Origin: an uncultured Bacilli bacterium
GTDB taxonomy: Bacteria > Bacillota_I > Bacilli_A > RFN20 > DUOF01
Direction: 5' to 3'
DNA length: 64,000 bases
Assembly (NCBI GenBank): GCA_944363575.1
Contig: CALVUJ010000024.1
Coordinates: 1 to 64,000, forward strand
Under the pieces are notes generated by a model. It was given only the letters and a program-made list of their open reading frames with translations, did no database searches and had not been told where the DNA came from. Made by a program: the position numbers and the translations under genes. How positions within the stretch are numbered: the first letter of the stretch is position 1; each line of letters begins with the position of its first letter. Shown in pieces: positions 2,370 through 58,266 of the stretch.

Positions 2370-4008
2370 TTTAAAAGTTTTAGTAATGATGCAATTAAAG
2401 GAAAAACTGAATTTATCTTTCCTTAAAGATAAAAAGCAAGTATTGTTCAAAGCAATTTTTACTATTTTAAAGTTTGCTTTAGTAATAATGCTTTGTTATG
2501 CTTTGCTTTTTGTATGCAGATTACTAAATTTATTCTCATTAACAGCCCATATACCAACTAGTGTTATTAACGTTGTATTTACAGTAATGTTAATTCTTTC
2601 TATTATTTCTTGTACTTTTGGGCTAGTAAAATCTTTATATAGTTCAAGAGATAATCAAGTATTACTAACATTACCCACGAAGTCAATTTATGTTTTCTTA
2701 TCCAAATTAATTGTTTTCTATTTATATGAATTAATAAAAAATTTATCGTTTATGATACCTTTATTTATTAGTTATGGAATTATAAGTGGATTTAGTGTTA
2801 TTTATTATTTTTGGATTATTTTTTGCTTTATTTTTATTTCTCTAATCCCTGTTTTAACTGGAGCCTTACTATCAATACCTATGTTATATATTATTCAATT
2901 TTTTAAACAATATAAAATATTACAAGGTATTGTCTTTGCATCAATAGTAGCTCTTTTAACAATGGGTGTTATAAAAGGGATATCTTTAATTCCTGAAAAT
3001 ATTGATTTTATTGCTACATGGGGAACAACCTATTGGAAAATACAAGATTTCTTAAAAACTTTTTCTACTAGATTAGGTATCTTTTATGACATTACAGAAA
3101 TGCTAGTAGGCATCCGTTTAGCCTTAAAAAATGTTTTATTTACCACCTCTTCTTTATTAACATTTTTAAAAGTTATTGGTTATTTAATTATTGTTTTAGG
3201 ATTAACTTTATTAATTACTAAACCATTATTCTATAAAATGGCCTCTAAACCATTTGAATATCTAAAAAAAGATATTAAAAATAAACCTAAAAATAAAGTT
3301 AGAAATAAATACTATTCTTCTTTAAGAAATGAATTTTTACTAAATATTAGATCAACAGATGCTATCTTTAATAATTTAATTATTTTAATAGGTTTACCTA
3401 TAGGAATTCTTTTATTAAATAAGATTTTTGCAGCAATGGATACAAGAACACTAGGTAATTACTTAACATTATCCTTCAATATTTTAATTGTGTTATTATT
3501 TATTTTATCAAGCAATTCATTTGCTGCTTCCATTTACAGTAAGGAAGGAAGAGCTAGCTATCTATTAAAAGTTCAACCATCTAGATACCAACCATTACTT
3601 ATCTCTAAATTAGTGTTTAATGGAATAGTTGCCATTATATCTTTAATTGCTACAGGAGTAGTCATTAAATTAAGTACCAATTTGAGTGTTTCCAATGTCA
3701 TAATATTAACTTTATTTTTTATCTTTATTTATATAGCTCATTTATGTTGGAGTGCTGAATTAGATATTATGAATCCACAATATGAGATATACGCTAGTAT
3801 TGGTGAACAGGAAAGTAACCCAAATGAAACTAAGTCAACAATATATGCCTTTTTACTAGCATTTGGTTTATTTGCTATTGCTTTGTTTTTGATGATGGAA
3901 AATATTAATGAAGCATGGTACAGATTATTATTCATAAGTTTATTACTGTTAATCTTAAGAGTTTATTTATTTTTAAACAAAATAAAACTTTATTATAAGG
4001 AGAAATAG
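2362..4008 (+). CDS. ABC-2-type transporter permease
   Basis: A 548-residue polytopic membrane protein with about a dozen hydrophobic segments in two blocks, separated by a basic cytoplasmic stretch (KKDIKNKPKNKVRNK) near residues 305-320. A GTG 12 nt further upstream is in frame, but the ATG at 2362 is preferred because AGGTGGG sits at proper distance before it. The start overlaps the stop of the upstream ATPase fusion by 8 nt, so translation is probably coupled and the two form one transporter. It resembles large ABC-2 permeases partnered with CcmA-like ATPases in Firmicutes. No substrate can be read from the sequence. The next gene starts 3 nt after its stop, which implies one transcript. 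Confidence 0.75.
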   Translation: MNSLKVLVMMQLKEKLNLSFLKDKKQVLFKAIFTILKFALVIMLCYALLFVCRLLNLFSLTAHIPTSVINVVFTVMLILSIISCTFGLVKSLYSSRDNQVLLTLPTKSIYVFLSKLIVFYLYELIKNLSFMIPLFISYGIISGFSVIYYFWIIFCFIFISLIPVLTGALLSIPMLYIIQFFKQYKILQGIVFASIVALLTMGVIKGISLIPENIDFIATWGTTYWKIQDFLKTFSTRLGIFYDITEMLVGIRLALKNVLFTTSSLLTFLKVIGYLIIVLGLTLLITKPLFYKMASKPFEYLKKDIKNKPKNKVRNKYYSSLRNEFLLNIRSTDAIFNNLIILIGLPIGILLLNKIFAAMDTRTLGNYLTLSFNILIVLLFILSSNSFAASIYSKEGRASYLLKVQPSRYQPLLISKLVFNGIVAIISLIATGVVIKLSTNLSVSNVIILTLFFIFIYIAHLCWSAELDIMNPQYEIYASIGEQESNPNETKSTIYAFLLAFGLFAIALFLMMENINEAWYRLLFISLLLLILRVYLFLNKIKLYYKEK

Positions 4009-4010
4009 AT

Positions 4011-4439
4011 ATGAAGAAGTCAGTGTTAATTTTAATTGCAGTAATCTATGTGGTAGCTATCTTTATGGTTAGCTTTATAGGTTTAAAGATAGGATTCTAT
4101 GATGAAATTATGTATGTAGAAAGCATTAGTGTTGAAAATATAGAATGTGAAAATTGTACGGTTAAGACGGCCGTTGAAAACGGGGTAGAGTATAAATATG
4201 CTGTAGTACAGTATGAAGATGATCCTGAAAATCCAACAGCAGTGCAAATTATTTGGAAATTAAATCCTGATAATGCTACTAATAAAAAAGTAACATTTGA
4301 ATACGATAAGAGTAAAACAATTGGCTATGTAACTGAAACAGGAACAGTAGTCTTTAATAAGAAGGGAACGATTAATGTTTATATTTTAGCTACTGATGGG
4401 AGTGGGCAAAGAGCAATGGTTAAAATTATCGCTAAATAA
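4011..4439 (+). CDS. small membrane-anchored extracytoplasmic protein
   Basis: A 142-residue protein with one N-terminal membrane segment (about residues 4-27) and no lipobox, followed by an outward-facing domain rich in beta-type residues. The domain ends in a pattern (VVFNKKGTINVYILATDGSG) typical of small Ig-like folds, but I cannot assign a named family. A Cys pair in IECENC might form a disulfide or bind metal; this is inference. It starts 3 nt after the permease gene with GGAG in front, so it belongs to the same operon and may be an accessory subunit of the exporter. Unknown function. Confidence 0.65.
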   Translation: MKKSVLILIAVIYVVAIFMVSFIGLKIGFYDEIMYVESISVENIECENCTVKTAVENGVEYKYAVVQYEDDPENPTAVQIIWKLNPDNATNKKVTFEYDKSKTIGYVTETGTVVFNKKGTINVYILATDGSGQRAMVKIIAK

Positions 4440-4446
4440 GAATTCA

Positions 4447-4496
4447 TGTTTTATTTAAGATAAAGAGAGCCTACTATATTTATCTTTAAATAAACA
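4447..4496. repeat. long inverted repeat between operon and lipoprotein gene
   Basis: Two 18-nt arms at 4447-4464 and 4479-4496 are reverse complements apart from small differences in the run of A/T. They are separated by a 14-nt loop. There is no T-run after it, so it is not a classical terminator. It could be a processing site or a weak terminator separating the 4011 gene from the lipoprotein gene that starts 37 nt later. Confidence 0.55.
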
Positions 4497-4532
4497 TTTT
4501 ATATAGATTTAAAAAAAGAAAGGGGAAATAAC

Positions 4533-6626
4533 ATGAAAAAATTAAAAACAATTTTACCAATAATGGCTATGATTATCTCAATGTGTTTTGTTGTTGTAGC
4601 CTGCGGTGGTAAGAAGATTGAAAGTATTGTTTTAAAAGAAGGTAGTATAGCTACAGGTTATACTCAAAACGAAGAAGTAGATCTAAGTGGTTTAATAATT
4701 ATAGTTAAATATAATGATGGAACAACAGAAGAAATTACAAAAGATAAATTAGAAGTAGGAACGATTGATACTTCTGTCGTTGGAGAACAAAAATTAACTA
4801 TTAAGTATGAAGGGAAAACTTTAGATGTTAATATTTTGGTATCTAATAATCTAGATGAAGTATATGATATATTCGGTGTTGATTTACCTACTTATTTAAC
4901 CGTAGATAAATCTAATTTTTATGAACAAGATCATGATTATGTAGTAGGCGATGATAATCCTTTTAAGTTTTTACCAAATATTACGGTATTAGACAATGAT
5001 GACAACTTAGTAACTATTAACCGATATAAGAGTATTTCTACAATTTATAAATATAATGAGGCAAGTCAAATATATGAAGAATTGACAGGAGCAAATCTTA
5101 CTAGTACCGTTACAGTAGATGAAGAAAATTCTACTTATGATTTTAGTGATGTAAGTATAGGTAATAAATATAAATTAATGGTTAGGCCATATTATTTAAC
5201 GGCTGAACAAGCTGAAGATGATGATTTTACAGTATCTTTTGAGTTTAAAGTAGTAGATGGTTGGAATGCATATACAGTTGCAGATCTTTCTAGAATTGAC
5301 AATAGTCAAGATGAATGGAATGAGTATAAAACAAATCATGGAATTGGAAATGAGAAAATTAATGGATTAGTATTACATGGTAATATGACTATCACGATGA
5401 ATGATATTGCTTCTGGCTTTATATATAATTCTCAAGAAACAAGGGAAACTGAATATACTGAACAAAATTATACTAATACAGCAGTTCAAAACACTTTAAA
5501 AGATGGGACATTAATATATGAAAGAACTATAGGTGGCGATTATGGTGTATTTACTTTATATGGTAATTACTTTACTATTGATGCATCACAAATAGCACCT
5601 GCTTCAGATTTAGGAGCAGACTTTAGTAACACAGCATTAATTGCTTATACTTCTGCCTATAATAGAGACAGCAATAATAATAAGATTGCCTTAGAAAACA
5701 CAGTAAATACAAATGGTTTAATTAAAAACATTAATTTTATAGGTAATGCTAAAAGACAGGAAGAAGAAGCTTATAAAGGATTTGGAGGTTTAATTCTTTT
5801 CAAAAGTTTTAGATCTTTAACAACAACAGTTGAAAATTGTACAGTTAATGCTTTCTTTATTGGGATATTTCCTGAATTTTATGAGAGTAAAATAGTTGTT
5901 AATAAAGTTAAAGTTATTGATAGTTTCCAAAGTGGTATTTATGCAAGCCAAGGTATTACTCTGGAAATAAACGATAGCTTGATTTCAAAAAGTGGTGGCC
6001 CTGCAATTATTGTTCAACACCAAGAGAATGATGTAAGATCACCTATTGTTAATGTTTCTAATACCTTGATTGATTGCCCAGTAGCAGGACAGGAAGCGTG
6101 GTTCAATAGTATTGAGGGTTTATCTGCGATGGTTACTCAAATTAAAGCTTTAGATCAAATTTTTAGACTACAATTTGATAAAACATTCTTAAAAGGTAAT
6201 ACTAGTAGCGAACAAGAGTTAGCTAAGGCAACAATGAATATCATTGCTGTTTTAAAGGATGCTGATGCTGCTAGTCCAGTTGAGGCAACAGGCGTGCAAG
6301 GAAAAATTACTATTGATGGATATCTTGCGATAGATAAGGATCCAATACCTGCAGATGCAACTCTTAATGTTCATCAAAAAGTTCAACAGTTACAAAGTGA
6401 AAATCCAGTTTACGCTTCAGCACCAATACTTGTTAATAAGACAGGAGTTATTATCATTTATACAGGAGATCAAAGTAATCCTGTTGTCTTACCACAAGTT
6501 ATGGAAGGTGAGATGACACAAGAGGAAGCTTATAATAAAATTTCTTCAAGTGATAATGATAGTTTAACACTTTATATAGGTGGTTTAGCAGCTGTGTTGA
6601 ACAGGTATGACTTAGAGACTGAATAG
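4533..6626 (+). CDS. secreted lipoprotein with bacterial Ig-like (Big_3-type) domain
   Basis: A 697-residue lipoprotein. The signal peptide ends in lipobox VVAC with the acylated Cys at residue 24. Residues about 28-105 look like a Big_3-type Ig repeat (pattern DLSGLIIIVKYNDGTTEEI followed by GEQKLTIKYEGK). The middle part (about 390-520) has short repeated beta strands such as TVENCTVNAFFIG and IVNVSNTLIDCP, reminiscent of right-handed beta-helix surface proteins. The C-terminal region is unassigned. It is expected to be anchored outside the membrane after lipidation and trimming by LspA (encoded at 61.0 kb). It lies directly behind the ABC export cluster, though the inverted repeat between them may separate transcripts. 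A role in adhesion or surface binding is inference. The start is supported by AAAGGGG 7 nt upstream. Confidence 0.8.
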   Translation: MKKLKTILPIMAMIISMCFVVVACGGKKIESIVLKEGSIATGYTQNEEVDLSGLIIIVKYNDGTTEEITKDKLEVGTIDTSVVGEQKLTIKYEGKTLDVNILVSNNLDEVYDIFGVDLPTYLTVDKSNFYEQDHDYVVGDDNPFKFLPNITVLDNDDNLVTINRYKSISTIYKYNEASQIYEELTGANLTSTVTVDEENSTYDFSDVSIGNKYKLMVRPYYLTAEQAEDDDFTVSFEFKVVDGWNAYTVADLSRIDNSQDEWNEYKTNHGIGNEKINGLVLHGNMTITMNDIASGFIYNSQETRETEYTEQNYTNTAVQNTLKDGTLIYERTIGGDYGVFTLYGNYFTIDASQIAPASDLGADFSNTALIAYTSAYNRDSNNNKIALENTVNTNGLIKNINFIGNAKRQEEEAYKGFGGLILFKSFRSLTTTVENCTVNAFFIGIFPEFYESKIVVNKVKVIDSFQSGIYASQGITLEINDSLISKSGGPAIIVQHQENDVRSPIVNVSNTLIDCPVAGQEAWFNSIEGLSAMVTQIKALDQIFRLQFDKTFLKGNTSSEQELAKATMNIIAVLKDADAASPVEATGVQGKITIDGYLAIDKDPIPADATLNVHQKVQQLQSENPVYASAPILVNKTGVIIIYTGDQSNPVVLPQVMEGEMTQEEAYNKISSSDNDSLTLYIGGLAAVLNRYDLETE

Positions 6627-42235: not shown

Positions 42236-43699
42236 TTATAAATTATTAATAATTATTTCTTTTAATTTTAAGATATCTTCTTTTAAAGTGGAAGCACCTG
42301 CACTAAGACCAATCTTATGTCCATTTTTTATTTCCTGTTTTTTAATCAAATTTATAACATCTTCAGGCTTTTCTATAAAAAATGATTTTTTAATTTTACT
42401 AACATTATTAAATAATTCTTTAGTATTACTAGAATTTTTACCACCCATTATAATCATTACATCAACTTTTTTAGCAAGTTCAGTAGAGTAGTCATTAATT
42501 AATTTTTGAGCATTACAAATAGTGTTTTTATAATCAAATATTTTATTATTATTTTTCATTAGTTTTTTTATTTTTTGAATAAATAAAGCAGTTTTATCTT
42601 TAGAAAAAGTTGTTTGAACTACTAAAAAGTATTTATCATAACTTAAATCTATCTTTTCAATTTCCGATTCATCTTCAATAAAAAGAGGATTACTACACCA
42701 ACCTGCTATTCCTTCTACTTCAGGATGCATTTTATTATTACTAAATCCATATTTACCAAGAATAATAATTTTATATCCCTCATTATCTTTTTCTTGTACT
42801 AAGTAATTTATTGCTTTTACATTAGGGCAAGTACAATCAACGTATTTAATATGCTTTTCTTCTAAATATTTGAAAGTATTATAGGGTTCTCCATGTGCCC
42901 TTATTATAACTAAATCATCTTTATTAATATCATTTAGATTATTAACCGTTTTAATACCTTTTTCTTCCAACGATTTAATTACATTAGAATTATGTAATAT
43001 TTCTTTATATAAAATAATCTTTTTGTTTTTTTCTATTTGTTCATTAGTAAGTGAAAGTGATCTTTTTGCTCCATAACATAACCCACAAACTTCAGATATA
43101 AAAATATTTCTCTCTTTTTCTTTATATAATAATTCTAAAATAGCTTTATAACGATGTGATACTTTGTTTTTTTCTTGACTAGTAGCTAAACCAAAACATT
43201 TATTTAATTCGTTAGAGAAAAAAAGACAATCATAACCAAAAGAAGTATCACCAGTTTCTTGATATAAAATAGTGCCATATGTATAACCTTGTGAATAAAT
43301 ATAACTTCCATCAATAAAGTATTCTACAATAACACAAACAAAATGAGCTTTCCTATTTTCTTTAGTTCTCATTTCTTTTAATAATTTATCTCTATTTTCT
43401 TTATCACTACTATTTGTTCCTGCATATCTAGCACTATAAATGCCAGGAGCACCATCCAAACTATCAACACATAGTCCACTATCATCAGCAATAACAGACG
43501 CCAAGATCTTTTTCTTTTTTAAAAACGCATGTACTGCTTTAGCTTTAATTAAAGCATTTTCTAAAAAAGAATTTCCATTTTCATCTATTTTCTCATCAAA
43601 ACCAATATTTTTTAAAGATAAAATTTGATCATTATTAAAAATTTCTTTGAATTCTTTAATTTTATGAGTATTACTAGAAGCTAAAACACGAATGGCCAT
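42236..43699 (-). CDS. fusion of RdgB-type NTP pyrophosphatase and IspH (HMBPP reductase)
   Basis: A 487-residue protein with two enzyme domains in one frame. Residues 1 to about 195 are RdgB/HAM1, which hydrolyses ITP, XTP and dITP: SSNTHKIKEF, DDSGLCVDSLDGAPGIYSARYAG (ends cited, residues 72-94), FGYDCLFF, SHRYKA. Residues about 200-487 are IspH, the last enzyme of the MEP isoprenoid pathway. The Fe-S cysteines are C208 (GLCYGAK), C291 (CTCPNV) and C395 (TICNAQ). Substrate residues are H269 (RAHGEP), H325 and E327 (HPEVEG), T363-T364, the NSSN box near 422-425 and SAGAS near 466-470. Every expected catalytic residue of both domains is present, so both may work. GGAGG lies 7 nt ahead of the ATG. 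The fusion is not one I know from cultured bacteria. Confidence 0.92.
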   Translation of the reverse strand: MAIRVLASSNTHKIKEFKEIFNNDQILSLKNIGFDEKIDENGNSFLENALIKAKAVHAFLKKKKILASVIADDSGLCVDSLDGAPGIYSARYAGTNSSDKENRDKLLKEMRTKENRKAHFVCVIVEYFIDGSYIYSQGYTYGTILYQETGDTSFGYDCLFFSNELNKCFGLATSQEKNKVSHRYKAILELLYKEKERNIFISEVCGLCYGAKRSLSLTNEQIEKNKKIILYKEILHNSNVIKSLEEKGIKTVNNLNDINKDDLVIIRAHGEPYNTFKYLEEKHIKYVDCTCPNVKAINYLVQEKDNEGYKIIILGKYGFSNNKMHPEVEGIAGWCSNPLFIEDESEIEKIDLSYDKYFLVVQTTFSKDKTALFIQKIKKLMKNNNKIFDYKNTICNAQKLINDYSTELAKKVDVMIIMGGKNSSNTKELFNNVSKIKKSFFIEKPEDVINLIKKQEIKNGHKIGLSAGASTLKEDILKLKEIIINNL

Positions 43700-43935: not shown

Positions 43936-45092
43936 ATGTTAATAAAAAGAGATTATTATCTTAACCAATTTATATCTTAAAAAGATAAAGATATCGTTAA
44001 AATTATTACAGGTATTGGAAGATGTGGCAAATCAGTTCTTTTGTTTGATTTATTTTATAATTATTTAATAGATTCAGGGGTAAATAAAGAAAATATAACT
44101 ATATTGAAAATTATATAAAAAATGGAGATAGGTATTATCTTCTTTTAGACGAAATACAATTAGTAGAAAATTTTGAGGAAGTTGTGAATGATATTAAGAG
44201 AGATTTTAATGTAGACATTTATATAACTGGTTCTAACTCAAGGTTATTGTCAAAAGAAATTAATACAATATTTAGAGGACAAGGAGTAGAAATAAAAGTT
44301 TATCCTTTTTCTTTTTCTGAATATTATGATTTTGTAAAAGGAGATAAAAACAATGCTTTTAATGATTATATTATGTATGGAGGTTTGCCTTATTTGTTAC
44401 AAGAAGATAATAAAGTCAATAAAGTAAAATATTTAGAAATGATTTGTAATACAGTAGTAACAAAAGATATTATTGATAGACACAATATTAGAAATGTTCA
44501 AGCATTTAATTCCCTGGTAGACTTACTTTGTTCCTCTATTGGATCGTATGTTTCCTCTAGTAAAATTGCAAACACCTTAAAATCTAATGGTGTTAAAGAA
44601 ATTACTAATGAAACGATAAGTATATATTTAGATTATTTATGTGATGCTTTCTTGTTTTATAAAGTTAATCGTTATGATATAAAAGGAAAAGAATATTTGA
44701 AAACATTGAATAAATATTATGTTAGTGATATTGGAATAAGAAATACAAAACTTAATTTTAGGCAAATAGAAATGACACATACTATAGAAAATATTGTATA
44801 TTTAGAGTTATTAAAAAGGGGGTATATAGTAGATATAGGAAAGAATGTAAATCAAGAAATTGATTTCATTGCTAAAGATTTTAAAGATACTTATTATATT
44901 CAAGTTTCTTTTACAATAGAGGATGAAGAAGTGAAAAAGAGAGAATTAGGAGCCTTTAAAAGATTAGATGATGGTTATAAAAAAATAGTAATTACGATGG
45001 ACAACTCTCCGTTTACTATTTTAGAAAATGGGTATAAAAGGATAAATCTTATAGATTTTCTTTTAAATAATAATGCATTAAAGGAAATATAA
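43936..45092 (+). pseudogene. decayed AAA-type ATPase of the DUF4143 family
   Basis: The original start is the ATG at 43936 with GGGTGAT ahead. The frame reads MLIKRDYYLNQFIS and then meets TAA at codon 15. It resumes KDKDIVKIITGIGRCGKSVLL (Walker A, with Gly replacing the usual Arg), and stops again near 44118. After a frameshift and an apparent loss of 20-30 codons, the frame from about 44106 continues YYLLLDEIQ (Walker B), YITGSNSRLLSKE (sensor), YPFSFSEYYDF, the GGLPYLL segment and a DUF4143 C-terminus (VDIGKNVNQEIDFIA) to a TAA at 45090-45092. The 302-codon open part from 44184 lacks Walker A and is very unlikely to be active. This family is common in variable regions of gut bacteria; its function is unclear. 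Confidence 0.85.
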
Positions 45093-45167: not shown

Positions 45168-45244
45168 TGGCGTTCACGATAGGATTTGAACCTACGACCC
45201 CTTCCTTAGGAGGGAAGTGCTCTATCCAGCTGAGCTACGTGAAC
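45168..45244 (-). tRNA. tRNA-Arg (anticodon CCU)
   Basis: On the minus strand: acceptor GTTCACG/CGTGAAC, D-stem GCTC/GAGC, anticodon stem CTTCC/GGAAG with loop CTCCTAA (anticodon CCT, reads AGG), T-stem GTAGG/CCTAT with one G-U pair, discriminator G and encoded CCA. All stems pair. It lies 40 nt behind the HTH-TPR regulator gene on the same strand. ATTATA at 45254-45259 (TATAAT on the minus strand) may be its -10. Confidence 0.96.
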
Positions 45245-45284: not shown

Positions 45285-46208
45285 TTAACAATCAACATTT
45301 TGATAAATATCTAATTGATGCTTTATTATTTCGGATTCCATAATAGTCTCTTCAAATAAATTGAAAAAAGTTGTAGCCTTTTTATAAAAATATTTAGATT
45401 TTTCAACTTCTTCTAATATTTCATAAATATTAGCTAACATTACCCATAAATTACCTAAATAGTCATAACAACAATAACGATGAGATAATTCTATAGCGTT
45501 ATTAATGATAGTAACACAATCATCATAATTTTTCAGGGTAAAATAAAAGTGAATAGTAGAAACCATTAAAGAAATAATGATTCGGTAATCTTTATCCATA
45601 GGATAATCATAGATTGAATTATTTAAAACTTTTATATAATACAATGATTCAGTAGTACTTAATTTACCATCTATTCTCCAATTACAATAAATAAGACCAT
45701 TTATAATTCTCATTTCAGTTAGGGTAAATACTTCATCATCAATATAACTACTAGTAATTGCTAAAGCTTTTAAATACTTTTCTTTAGCTACTTCATATTT
45801 TCCTAAATCATATAAATAATTAGCTTCCACTAATCCAAGATATTGAGCATCCACAGGATGTAAAATCCTATCAGTATACTTTTTAGCTAGTTCATAAGCC
45901 TTCTCATATTTTCTAACTTTCATTAAGGCATCTATCTCATTTTTCTTTAACCATAGTTGATTTATTTCTCCACCATAAGCAAACAAGAAAAAATCATCAA
46001 GTGTAATAGATAACCTTCTACAAAGTTGATTTAAAAGATAAATAGAAGGTTGCTTTACTCGCCCTTTTTCTAAATGAATAAGAGCAGTTCTATCACAAAT
46101 TCCTTCTGCTAATTTTATTTGCGATAATCCTGCTTGCATTCTTAGTTTACGAATAGCAGAACCAATCTTTAAATAATCATCACCACCACTGATAACAGAA
46201 TCATTCAT
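45285..46208 (-). CDS. HTH-TPR transcription regulator of the RRNPP (Rgg/PlcR-like) type
   Basis: A 307-residue protein. Residues about 14-75 are an XRE-type HTH (IGSAIRKLRMQAGLSQIKLAEG, DRTALIHLEKG, LLNQLCRRLSITLDDFF). The rest, about 85-300, is all-helical in TPR-like pairs (YEKAYELAKKY, YEVAKEKYLKAL, YDDCVTIINNAIEL, VEKSKYFYKKA). HTH plus TPR of this length is the layout of RRNPP regulators, which bind a re-imported peptide in the TPR groove. It is divergent from a 39-residue peptide gene whose ATG is 137 bp away, the classic arrangement of a receptor with its pheromone. GGTGAT lies 6 nt before the ATG. It is not assigned to a named subfamily. Confidence 0.85.
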   Translation of the reverse strand: MNDSVISGGDDYLKIGSAIRKLRMQAGLSQIKLAEGICDRTALIHLEKGRVKQPSIYLLNQLCRRLSITLDDFFLFAYGGEINQLWLKKNEIDALMKVRKYEKAYELAKKYTDRILHPVDAQYLGLVEANYLYDLGKYEVAKEKYLKALAITSSYIDDEVFTLTEMRIINGLIYCNWRIDGKLSTTESLYYIKVLNNSIYDYPMDKDYRIIISLMVSTIHFYFTLKNYDDCVTIINNAIELSHRYCCYDYLGNLWVMLANIYEILEEVEKSKYFYKKATTFFNLFEETIMESEIIKHQLDIYQNVDC

Positions 46209-46226
46209 TTAAGTATCACCATAAGA

Positions 46227-46255
46227 ATTATAACTAAATTGTCAATTTTTTACAA
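46227..46255 (-). promoter_or_regulatory. promoter of the HTH-TPR regulator, with overlapping dyad
   Basis: On the minus strand: -35 TTGTAA (46250-46255), 17-nt spacer, -10 TATAAT (46227-46232). A dyad ATTGT-N9-ACAAT (46238-46256) overlaps the -35 and spacer, a good place for autorepression. Confidence 0.6.
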
Positions 46256-46270
46256 TAAATAGCAAAAAAA

Positions 46271-46303
46271 GTCTAAATGTGGCGAGTTTTCACAGGTCTA
46301 GAC
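46271..46303 (+). promoter_or_regulatory. operator-like dyad ahead of the peptide gene
   Basis: GTCTA...TGTG (46271-46281) mirrors CACA...TAGAC (46291-46303). The right half also contains the 8-bp palindrome GTCTAGAC (46296-46303). It overlaps TAGACA (46299-46304), a possible -35 followed after 17 nt by a poor -10, which is what an activator-dependent promoter would look like. Confidence 0.5.
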
Positions 46304-46345
46304 AACTTTTCTCACACTAAAATACACAGAAAAGGAGGGAAGAAC

Positions 46346-46465
46346 ATGTTAACAAACGTTTTAACAATCATCAAACCTGGTGATCCATTTGGATCAGAAA
46401 CAGAAAACCCAGTATGGCCTTTCTGTACAAGTCCAGTATTTGCTGTTTTCAATTGGTTATTCTAA
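46346..46465 (+). CDS. 39-residue peptide gene, candidate signalling peptide
   Basis: The ATG at 46346 has a perfect AGGAGG 7 nt upstream. An open frame extends upstream to 46277 but lacks such a site. The peptide has a hydrophobic N-terminus (MLTNVLTIIK), a Pro/Gly/acidic middle (PGDPFGSETENP) and a very hydrophobic aromatic end (VWPFCTSP, VFAVFNWLF). It has one cysteine and no charge after residue 20. There is no typical signal peptide with a cleavage site. It is divergent from an RRNPP-type regulator and followed by a terminator, so it is a monocistronic peptide gene. A pheromone precursor whose C-terminus is the active part is the first hypothesis; a leaderless antimicrobial peptide is an alternative. 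No modifying enzyme or dedicated exporter is adjacent. Confidence 0.75.
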   Translation: MLTNVLTIIKPGDPFGSETENPVWPFCTSPVFAVFNWLF

Positions 46466-46504
46466 TTTTAACGGCAAAATTTTAGAGAAGCGTAGTTTTT
46501 CACA

Positions 46505-46535
46505 AAAAATAGTTAGTCATCTAACTATTTTTTCT
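46505..46535. terminator. bidirectional terminator between peptide gene and DEAD-box helicase
   Basis: Stem AAATAGTTAG/CTAACTATTT with loop TCAT, A-run before and T-run after. It ends the peptide transcript on the plus strand and overlaps the helicase stop on the minus strand. Confidence 0.88.
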
Positions 46536-58032: not shown

Positions 58033-58266
58033 ATTGTAAAAACAATGATGAAGACACGAAATTAAAGAACTTTTATTGTAGAGAGATGCTGGTTGGTGAA
58101 AAGCATTAATAAAAACTTTAATTTTATCACTTCGGAGTTTCTTTATTGAAAGTAGTAAATAAAGACGTCGTTAGCGTTAATAACTAATTAAGTGCATAGA
58201 TATTCTATGAAGTAGGATGGTACCGCTTTGTATATACAGAGTTCCTATACATTAGGAACTTTTTTT
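58033..58266 (+). promoter_or_regulatory. T-box leader of ileS, isoleucine type
   Basis: Stem I has the distal motif AGAGAGATGCTGGTTGGTG, and the specifier region reads TTTT-ATC-ACTTCGGAG, giving ATC (Ile). The T-box AGGATGGTACCGC carries TGGT (58218-58221) for a tRNA ending ACCA. The terminator is AGTTCCTA/TAGGAACT with loop TACAT and T7 (58240-58266). All T-box parts are close to consensus. It fills the gap between the ABC gene and ileS. Confidence 0.93.

Follow-up and report, generated by a model that had tools for sequence, protein, structure and literature searches.

A PlcR-like receptor gene facing a leaderless propeptide gene in uncultured Bacilli: a predicted peptide signalling switch

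In RRNPP-type signalling systems, the propeptides are mostly secreted via Sec, while SHP and PrgQ leave the cell via PptAB; this is not universal, as the leaderless peptides of the RopB class do without it. One genome survey, in which a signal peptide was a requirement, assigned RRNPP(A) systems to the Lactobacillales and Bacillales (PMC9765709), and would for that reason miss a receptor paired with a leaderless propeptide such as the one described here. Among the characterized systems, PlcR contacts the glutamate of its peptide PapR through Lys89, Gln237 and Tyr275 (PMC6568020), and the type II ComS of S. mutans is a precursor of just 17 residues, whose exporter has not been identified (PMC6211226). 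The Bacilli also comprise orders with reduced genomes, including RF39 and RFN20 (PMC10868615), and the genome studied here probably belongs to an order of this kind. For the lineage studied here, we found no description of a comparable system in the open-access literature.

The locus lies in a window of 64,000 nucleotides (the whole stretch of DNA that was analysed) from a genome of 1.13 Mb, hereafter G000, which is 91% complete, low in G+C and assembled into 26 contigs; its family and order consist only of uncultured-looking small genomes. We interpret the pair described below, with a probability of roughly 0.72, as an auto-inducing switch of the RRNPP type, made up of a receptor and a leaderless propeptide, in which the signalling itself is predicted. 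A preliminary description had proposed a 307-residue HTH-TPR protein on the minus strand that faces a 39-codon gene on the plus strand, the latter with an AGGAGG ribosome site and a terminator of its own, and two dyads between them. The two open reading frames (ORFs) are exactly as claimed and are separated by 137 bp, and the ribosome site and both dyads are present. The terminator hairpin exists as well and is shared with a convergent DEAD-box helicase gene. The features of the locus are:

45168-45244, minus strand: tRNA-Arg(CCU) gene just downstream of the regulator gene, a synteny marker (it adjoins the regulator gene in G002 too and is about 1.5 kb away in G001)
45285-46208, minus strand: RRNPP-type receptor/regulator of 307 aa, with HTH_3 (residues 19-73) and a helical TPR superhelix (Pfam, PlcR match, AF2, Foldseek)
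46227-46255, minus strand: regulator promoter, TTGTAA-17-TATAAT, 10 of 12 matches, called from the consensus alone
46246-46269: imperfect dyad that covers the regulator's -35 element, 11-nt arms 82% complementary; candidate auto-regulatory operator
46296-46303: perfect 8-mer palindrome, GTCTAGAC, at the -35 position of the presumed peptide promoter; putative regulatory site
46318-46323, plus strand: TAAAAT, the presumed -10 of a peptide promoter that lacks a good -35
46332-46339, plus strand: Shine-Dalgarno (SD) site containing AGGAGG (46333-46338), 7 nt ahead of the ATG
46346-46465, plus strand: leaderless propeptide gene of 39 codons, MLTNVLTIIKPGDPFGSETENPVWPFCTSPVFAVFNWLF (ORF, SD site, chance statistics, homologue in G002)
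46504-46533: bidirectional terminator hairpin between the peptide gene and the convergent helicase gene, -11.6 kcal/mol, z -7.9

Elsewhere in the window, a single ORF of 487 aa (42236-43699, minus strand) carries a Ham1/RdgB nucleotide pyrophosphatase (residues 5-191) followed by LytB/IspH (residues 199-476), an unusual gene fusion; a GTG-start ORF of 302 aa (44184-45092, plus strand) holds just the end of an AAA_14 domain followed by DUF4143 and is probably an N-terminally truncated ATPase; and a T-box leader lies at 58036-58249 on the plus strand (114.5 bits).

Sequence and predicted structure both confirm that the regulator is an RRNPP receptor, with PlcR as the nearest relative and ComR, Rgg2/3 and PrgX next, in agreement with the identity first proposed. 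HTH_3 and TPR_2 score above the Pfam cut-offs, and the best match among PDB sequences is PlcR, at 3e-9 with the single sequence and at 2e-14 with a small profile, the latter over residues 14-302; this profile (A1) matches Rgg over the HTH alone. Searches of NCBIfam, and likewise of PHROGs, returned only weak HTH matches. An AlphaFold (AF2) model built from 45 window and locus sequences has a mean pLDDT of 86.5, and Foldseek ranks the PlcR-PapR-DNA complex first against it, followed by ComR, Lmo0325, Rgg2/Rgg3 and PrgX, all with a probability of 1.0. The TM-scores of about 0.45-0.6 and the large rmsd values are taken to mean a differing relative orientation of the domains, so that the model shows the family and not the ligand-bound state. 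The protein thus has the predicted build of an RRNPP(A) receptor, an HTH followed by a TPR superhelix of the peptide-binding type within 250-500 aa, together with full-length similarity to a known receptor and, as in these systems, an adjoining small propeptide gene.

Several properties of the 39-codon ORF are those of a gene. Just two intergenic ORFs of 20-70 codons in the window have an SD match of at least 6, and it is one of them. In sequences drawn from a first-order Markov model with the dinucleotide frequencies of the divergent region, an SD-led ORF of at least 30 codons appears in 0.3% of draws; the corresponding figures are 0.55% for the homologous region of G002 and 0.15% for that of G004. 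The codon-position G+C of 0.38/0.44/0.26, compared with 0.27 for the window, fits a coding frame. An in-frame ATG further upstream, at 46277, would yield a product of 62 aa; as it has no SD site, the 39-codon version is the likely gene. The product has a polar middle and a hydrophobic, aromatic C-terminal end (about PVFAVFNWLF). By inspection, neither this peptide nor its counterparts in G002 and G004 show a signal peptide, that is, a basic N-region followed by a long hydrophobic run, which upholds the first assessment of it as leaderless.

The pair is not confined to the window. Of the 279 genomes of the order, only G000, G001, G002 and G004 strongly match the regulator along its length, and the divergent arrangement of regulator and small ORF recurs in two other genera, represented by G002, from the same family as G000, and G004, from another. 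The regulator of G002 is 54% identical to that of G000 in the HTH part and 36-38% elsewhere; it is broken by a frameshift in an A-run (L169, G002:C58, 3120-4035), through either decay or an assembly error, and the peptide gene beside it is intact. This gene is SD-led and has 39 codons (MFSFVLTHPGPCSGEGSGGLSPPVAAPVFRLLRLIFSLI, with AAAGGAGG). G004 has an intact regulator of 338 aa and an SD-led divergent ORF of 31 codons (MFLFCSDFDDLFPRLGGQPSALWNIIISVFF, with AAAGGAGGTG). All three loci share the layout of regulator, peptide gene, bidirectional terminator and convergent gene, with strong hairpins; the convergent gene is polC in both G002 and G004. As the tRNA-Arg(CCU) gene adjoins the regulator in G000 and G002 and lies about 1.5 kb off in G001, the locus was probably inherited vertically.

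The two 39-residue peptides of G000 and G002 align with a p of 0.0002-0.0006 against shuffles and have VLT, PG.P (as VLT..PG.P) and PVF in common, and the codons of VLT and PVF carry synonymous changes between the two genes. The 31-residue peptide of G004 could not be aligned with that of G000 (p 0.6), so that homology between these two would be a matter of position and character only, both being leaderless with an aromatic/aliphatic tail. The expectation that homologous regulators face a conserved small ORF therefore holds for two of the three full-length-type homologues, G002 and G004, and fails for G001, which has a related regulator with no divergent small ORF beside it. In an IQ-TREE phylogeny, the receptors of G000 and G004 pair with a support of 96/86, and G001 falls elsewhere, outside the group of the window protein, with weak support and a long branch. 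The claim of a leaderless peptide divergent from an RRNPP regulator and forming a new family is nevertheless supported by the recurrence of the arrangement in G002 and G004.

More distant searches added no further loci. A tblastn search of the 279 genomes of the order for relatives of the G000 and G002 peptides returned nothing convincing, and the matches that were checked were rejected, as they overlap unrelated genes; this method is too insensitive for such peptides, since neither query retrieves the other. A search of the genome contigs with the single regulator found no relatives, an alignment-based search of the same contigs found, besides G001 and G004, only PlcR-, Rgg- and ComR-like relatives, and a class-wide sample of 395 genomes held no further member of the regulator clade.

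These data bear on two readings in which the small ORF would have no part in signalling. It might be a chance ORF beside an orphan HTH-TPR regulator, as the missing ORF in G001 and the failure of the G004 and G000 peptides to align could suggest; however, a per-locus chance of 0.15-0.55% in three loci, the presence of just one other such ORF in 64 kb and the significant similarity of the G000 and G002 peptides make this very improbable, and we rejected it on statistical grounds. Alternatively, the ORF might encode the leader peptide of an attenuator, for which a short reading frame with an SD site and a terminator hairpin behind it is the classical arrangement. Here, however, the next gene is convergent in three of three genomes and the terminator is bidirectional, which leaves nothing downstream to attenuate; with no co-directional gene to follow, we rejected this reading, which is hardly tenable, on gene order.

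The divergent region offers candidate sites for regulation in both directions. The dyad over the -35 of the good regulator promoter would suit auto-repression. On the plus strand, no sigma-70 site reached the threshold of the promoter scan, and a peptide promoter that has a TAAAAT -10 but lacks a good -35 would suit activator-dependent control. Both dyads are short and AT-rich, and thus weak evidence when taken alone.

How the peptide might reach its receptor can be judged from the transport genes. An Opp permease, the import route of RRNPP(A) systems, had been proposed as something to look for elsewhere in the genome, and G000 indeed carries a complete oppABCDF operon on contig 16. G004 carries at least oppCDF, and OppA, OppC and the C-terminal family of OppD/F were not found in G001, G002 and G003. 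An intact pair thus coincides with Opp (G000, G004) and a frameshifted regulator with no detected Opp (G002), a correlation which, at five or six MAGs, is suggestive only, and which is directly testable in more genomes. Neither of the usual RRNPP(A) secretion routes, Sec or PptAB, could be assigned to the propeptide: EcsB/PptB was not found in any of six genomes, although the search did recover it from B. subtilis and L. lactis, which served as controls. Site-2 protease (M50) genes are present in all genomes examined. No peptidase-containing exporter (bacteriocin-type, C39-ABC) was found, the Peptidase C39 matches being stand-alone proteins of 120-170 aa. We also considered double-glycine processing, given the GG pairs in the peptides of G002 (GSGG) and G004 (LGG), and rejected it, as the G000 peptide has no GG and a C39-ABC exporter is missing.

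The stand-alone Peptidase_C39-like proteins themselves are encoded in G000, G002 and G004 (L176, 1405-1767; L175, 1486-1869; L173, 1492-2004), and in G000 and G002 their gene adjoins one for a transporter-like membrane protein.

Three peptides with no signal peptide, and genomes in which neither PptB/EcsB nor a peptidase-containing exporter was found, would also suit a peptide that is never exported and binds the receptor in the producer cell, forming a bistable switch or a growth-rate timer and not a means of cell-to-cell signalling. The peptide gene is retained in G002, which has no detectable Opp, and there is a precedent in S. mutans, where ComS can act on ComR within the cells (PMC6211226). 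Yet the Opp genes kept in G000 and G004 and missing from G001-G003 fit re-import, and peptides of the RopB class, which are likewise leaderless, are secreted, albeit by a route that is not known (PMC10518010); we consider a purely internal role doubtful. The hydrophobic C-terminus brings up another reading, in which the product of the small gene is an effector (bacteriocin-like or membrane-active, for instance) under the control of the regulator, with something else as the true inducer. Regulators beside small effector genes are common, but no modification, immunity or transport genes adjoin the pair, whose neighbours in the three genomes are a helicase gene or polC and tRNA genes, and the peptide is very near RRNPP propeptides in size and place, which makes such an effector unlikely.

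In the auto-inducing switch that we favour, the 39-residue product would be a leaderless propeptide whose C-terminal end (about PVFAVFNWLF) serves as the ligand. It would reach the cytoplasmic receptor via release and re-import through Opp, or directly inside the cell, and lodge in the concavity of the TPR domain. The peptide-bound receptor may then activate the weak promoter of the peptide gene, giving positive feedback, and probably other targets too, and it may repress its own promoter. Against this count the unalignable G004 peptide, the missing ORF in G001, the missing exporter and the weak dyads. A further generalization is possible, though tentative and on present evidence rather unlikely: the pair could represent a new class of RRNPP ligands, leaderless propeptides of 31-39 residues that are read by PlcR-like receptors in uncultured Bacilli with reduced genomes, use neither Sec nor PptAB nor a bacteriocin-type exporter, and possibly act purely within the cell. 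If uncultured Bacilli with genomes of about 1 Mb do pair a PlcR-like receptor with a leaderless propeptide, the family would reach beyond the Lactobacillales and Bacillales, and a PlcR-type receptor would be seen to have taken on a ligand that is neither PapR-like nor Sec-dependent. The pair would also offer a natural example for studying how leaderless peptides exit or act within cells.

Among the known systems, PlcR-PapR is the closest: its receptor is the nearest in sequence and fold, its peptide gene adjoins, and the ligand is expected at the C-terminus of the peptide. The G000 peptide differs in having neither a Sec signal peptide nor an LPFE-type tail. At the columns of PlcR Lys89, Gln237 and Tyr275, the G000 receptor has Arg99, Asn253 and Met290 and that of G004 has Cys, Arg and Trp, an assignment that is tentative at about 20% identity; receptors that read LPFEH, LPYEH or LPYED mostly keep Lys/Arg, Gln/Glu and Tyr there, with one exception (L116). 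As the glutamate-reading residues are not kept and an LPFE-type tail is missing, the peptide code appears to differ from that of PapR. Applied as a positive control to the surroundings of just over 40 more distantly related receptors, including those of Bacillaceae, the small-ORF scan picked up PapR-like propeptides that bear signal peptides. Their genes diverge from the receptor gene in Mesobacillus, Alkalicoccus and Alkalihalobacillus and lie downstream of it in Baia, Croceifilum, Ornithinibacillus and Sporosarcina, and the ends of the peptides include LPFEH, LPYEH, LPYED, LPNQH and IPSEH. The regulator thus lies close to a clade whose members usually have a peptide gene beside them.

Two loci from this wider set are worth recording. 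Beside a PlcR-like receptor in G299 (L144), a divergent ORF of 43 aa with a signal peptide ends in IELPWWL, a WW tail that is unusual in the clade, and in Sporosarcina globispora (L098) a propeptide with three IPSEH repeats lies downstream of a PlcR-like regulator (3854-4867).

RopB and its leaderless communication peptides (LCPs; SIP and relatives) resemble the pair in that the peptides are leaderless, aliphatic/aromatic and encoded divergently from the receptor gene (PMC10518010). LCPs are, however, mostly 8-10 residues long and need no processing, whereas the peptides here have 31-39 residues (39, 39 and 31 codons) and a polar middle, so that the ORF would not itself be the mature signal; moreover, the receptor is nearer to PlcR and lies outside the RopB/Rgg clan. 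ComR-ComS shares the receptor fold and a short precursor with a hydrophobic C-terminal end, but here there is no WW-type XIP motif and no comX next door, the precursor is twice as long and the orientation is divergent. Rgg2/3-SHP shares the receptor fold, a hydrophobic peptide and often a divergent gene, but SHP is exported by PptAB, whereas the peptide here has no basic N-terminus and the genome no PptB/EcsB. The early suggestion of an undescribed peptide family is supported. Judged by its sequence, the pair is neither PlcR-PapR, as it has no PapR-like peptide, nor an LCP of 8-10 residues, nor SHP; it is probably a new form of a known bacterial signalling circuit, with a well-supported locus and a predicted signal role. 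RRNPP_detector would class it as 'loose' (PMC10075063), together with other candidates in which a TPR receptor adjoins an SD-led peptide without a secretion tag. That class is a search category only, to which the G000 locus adds conservation across three genera.
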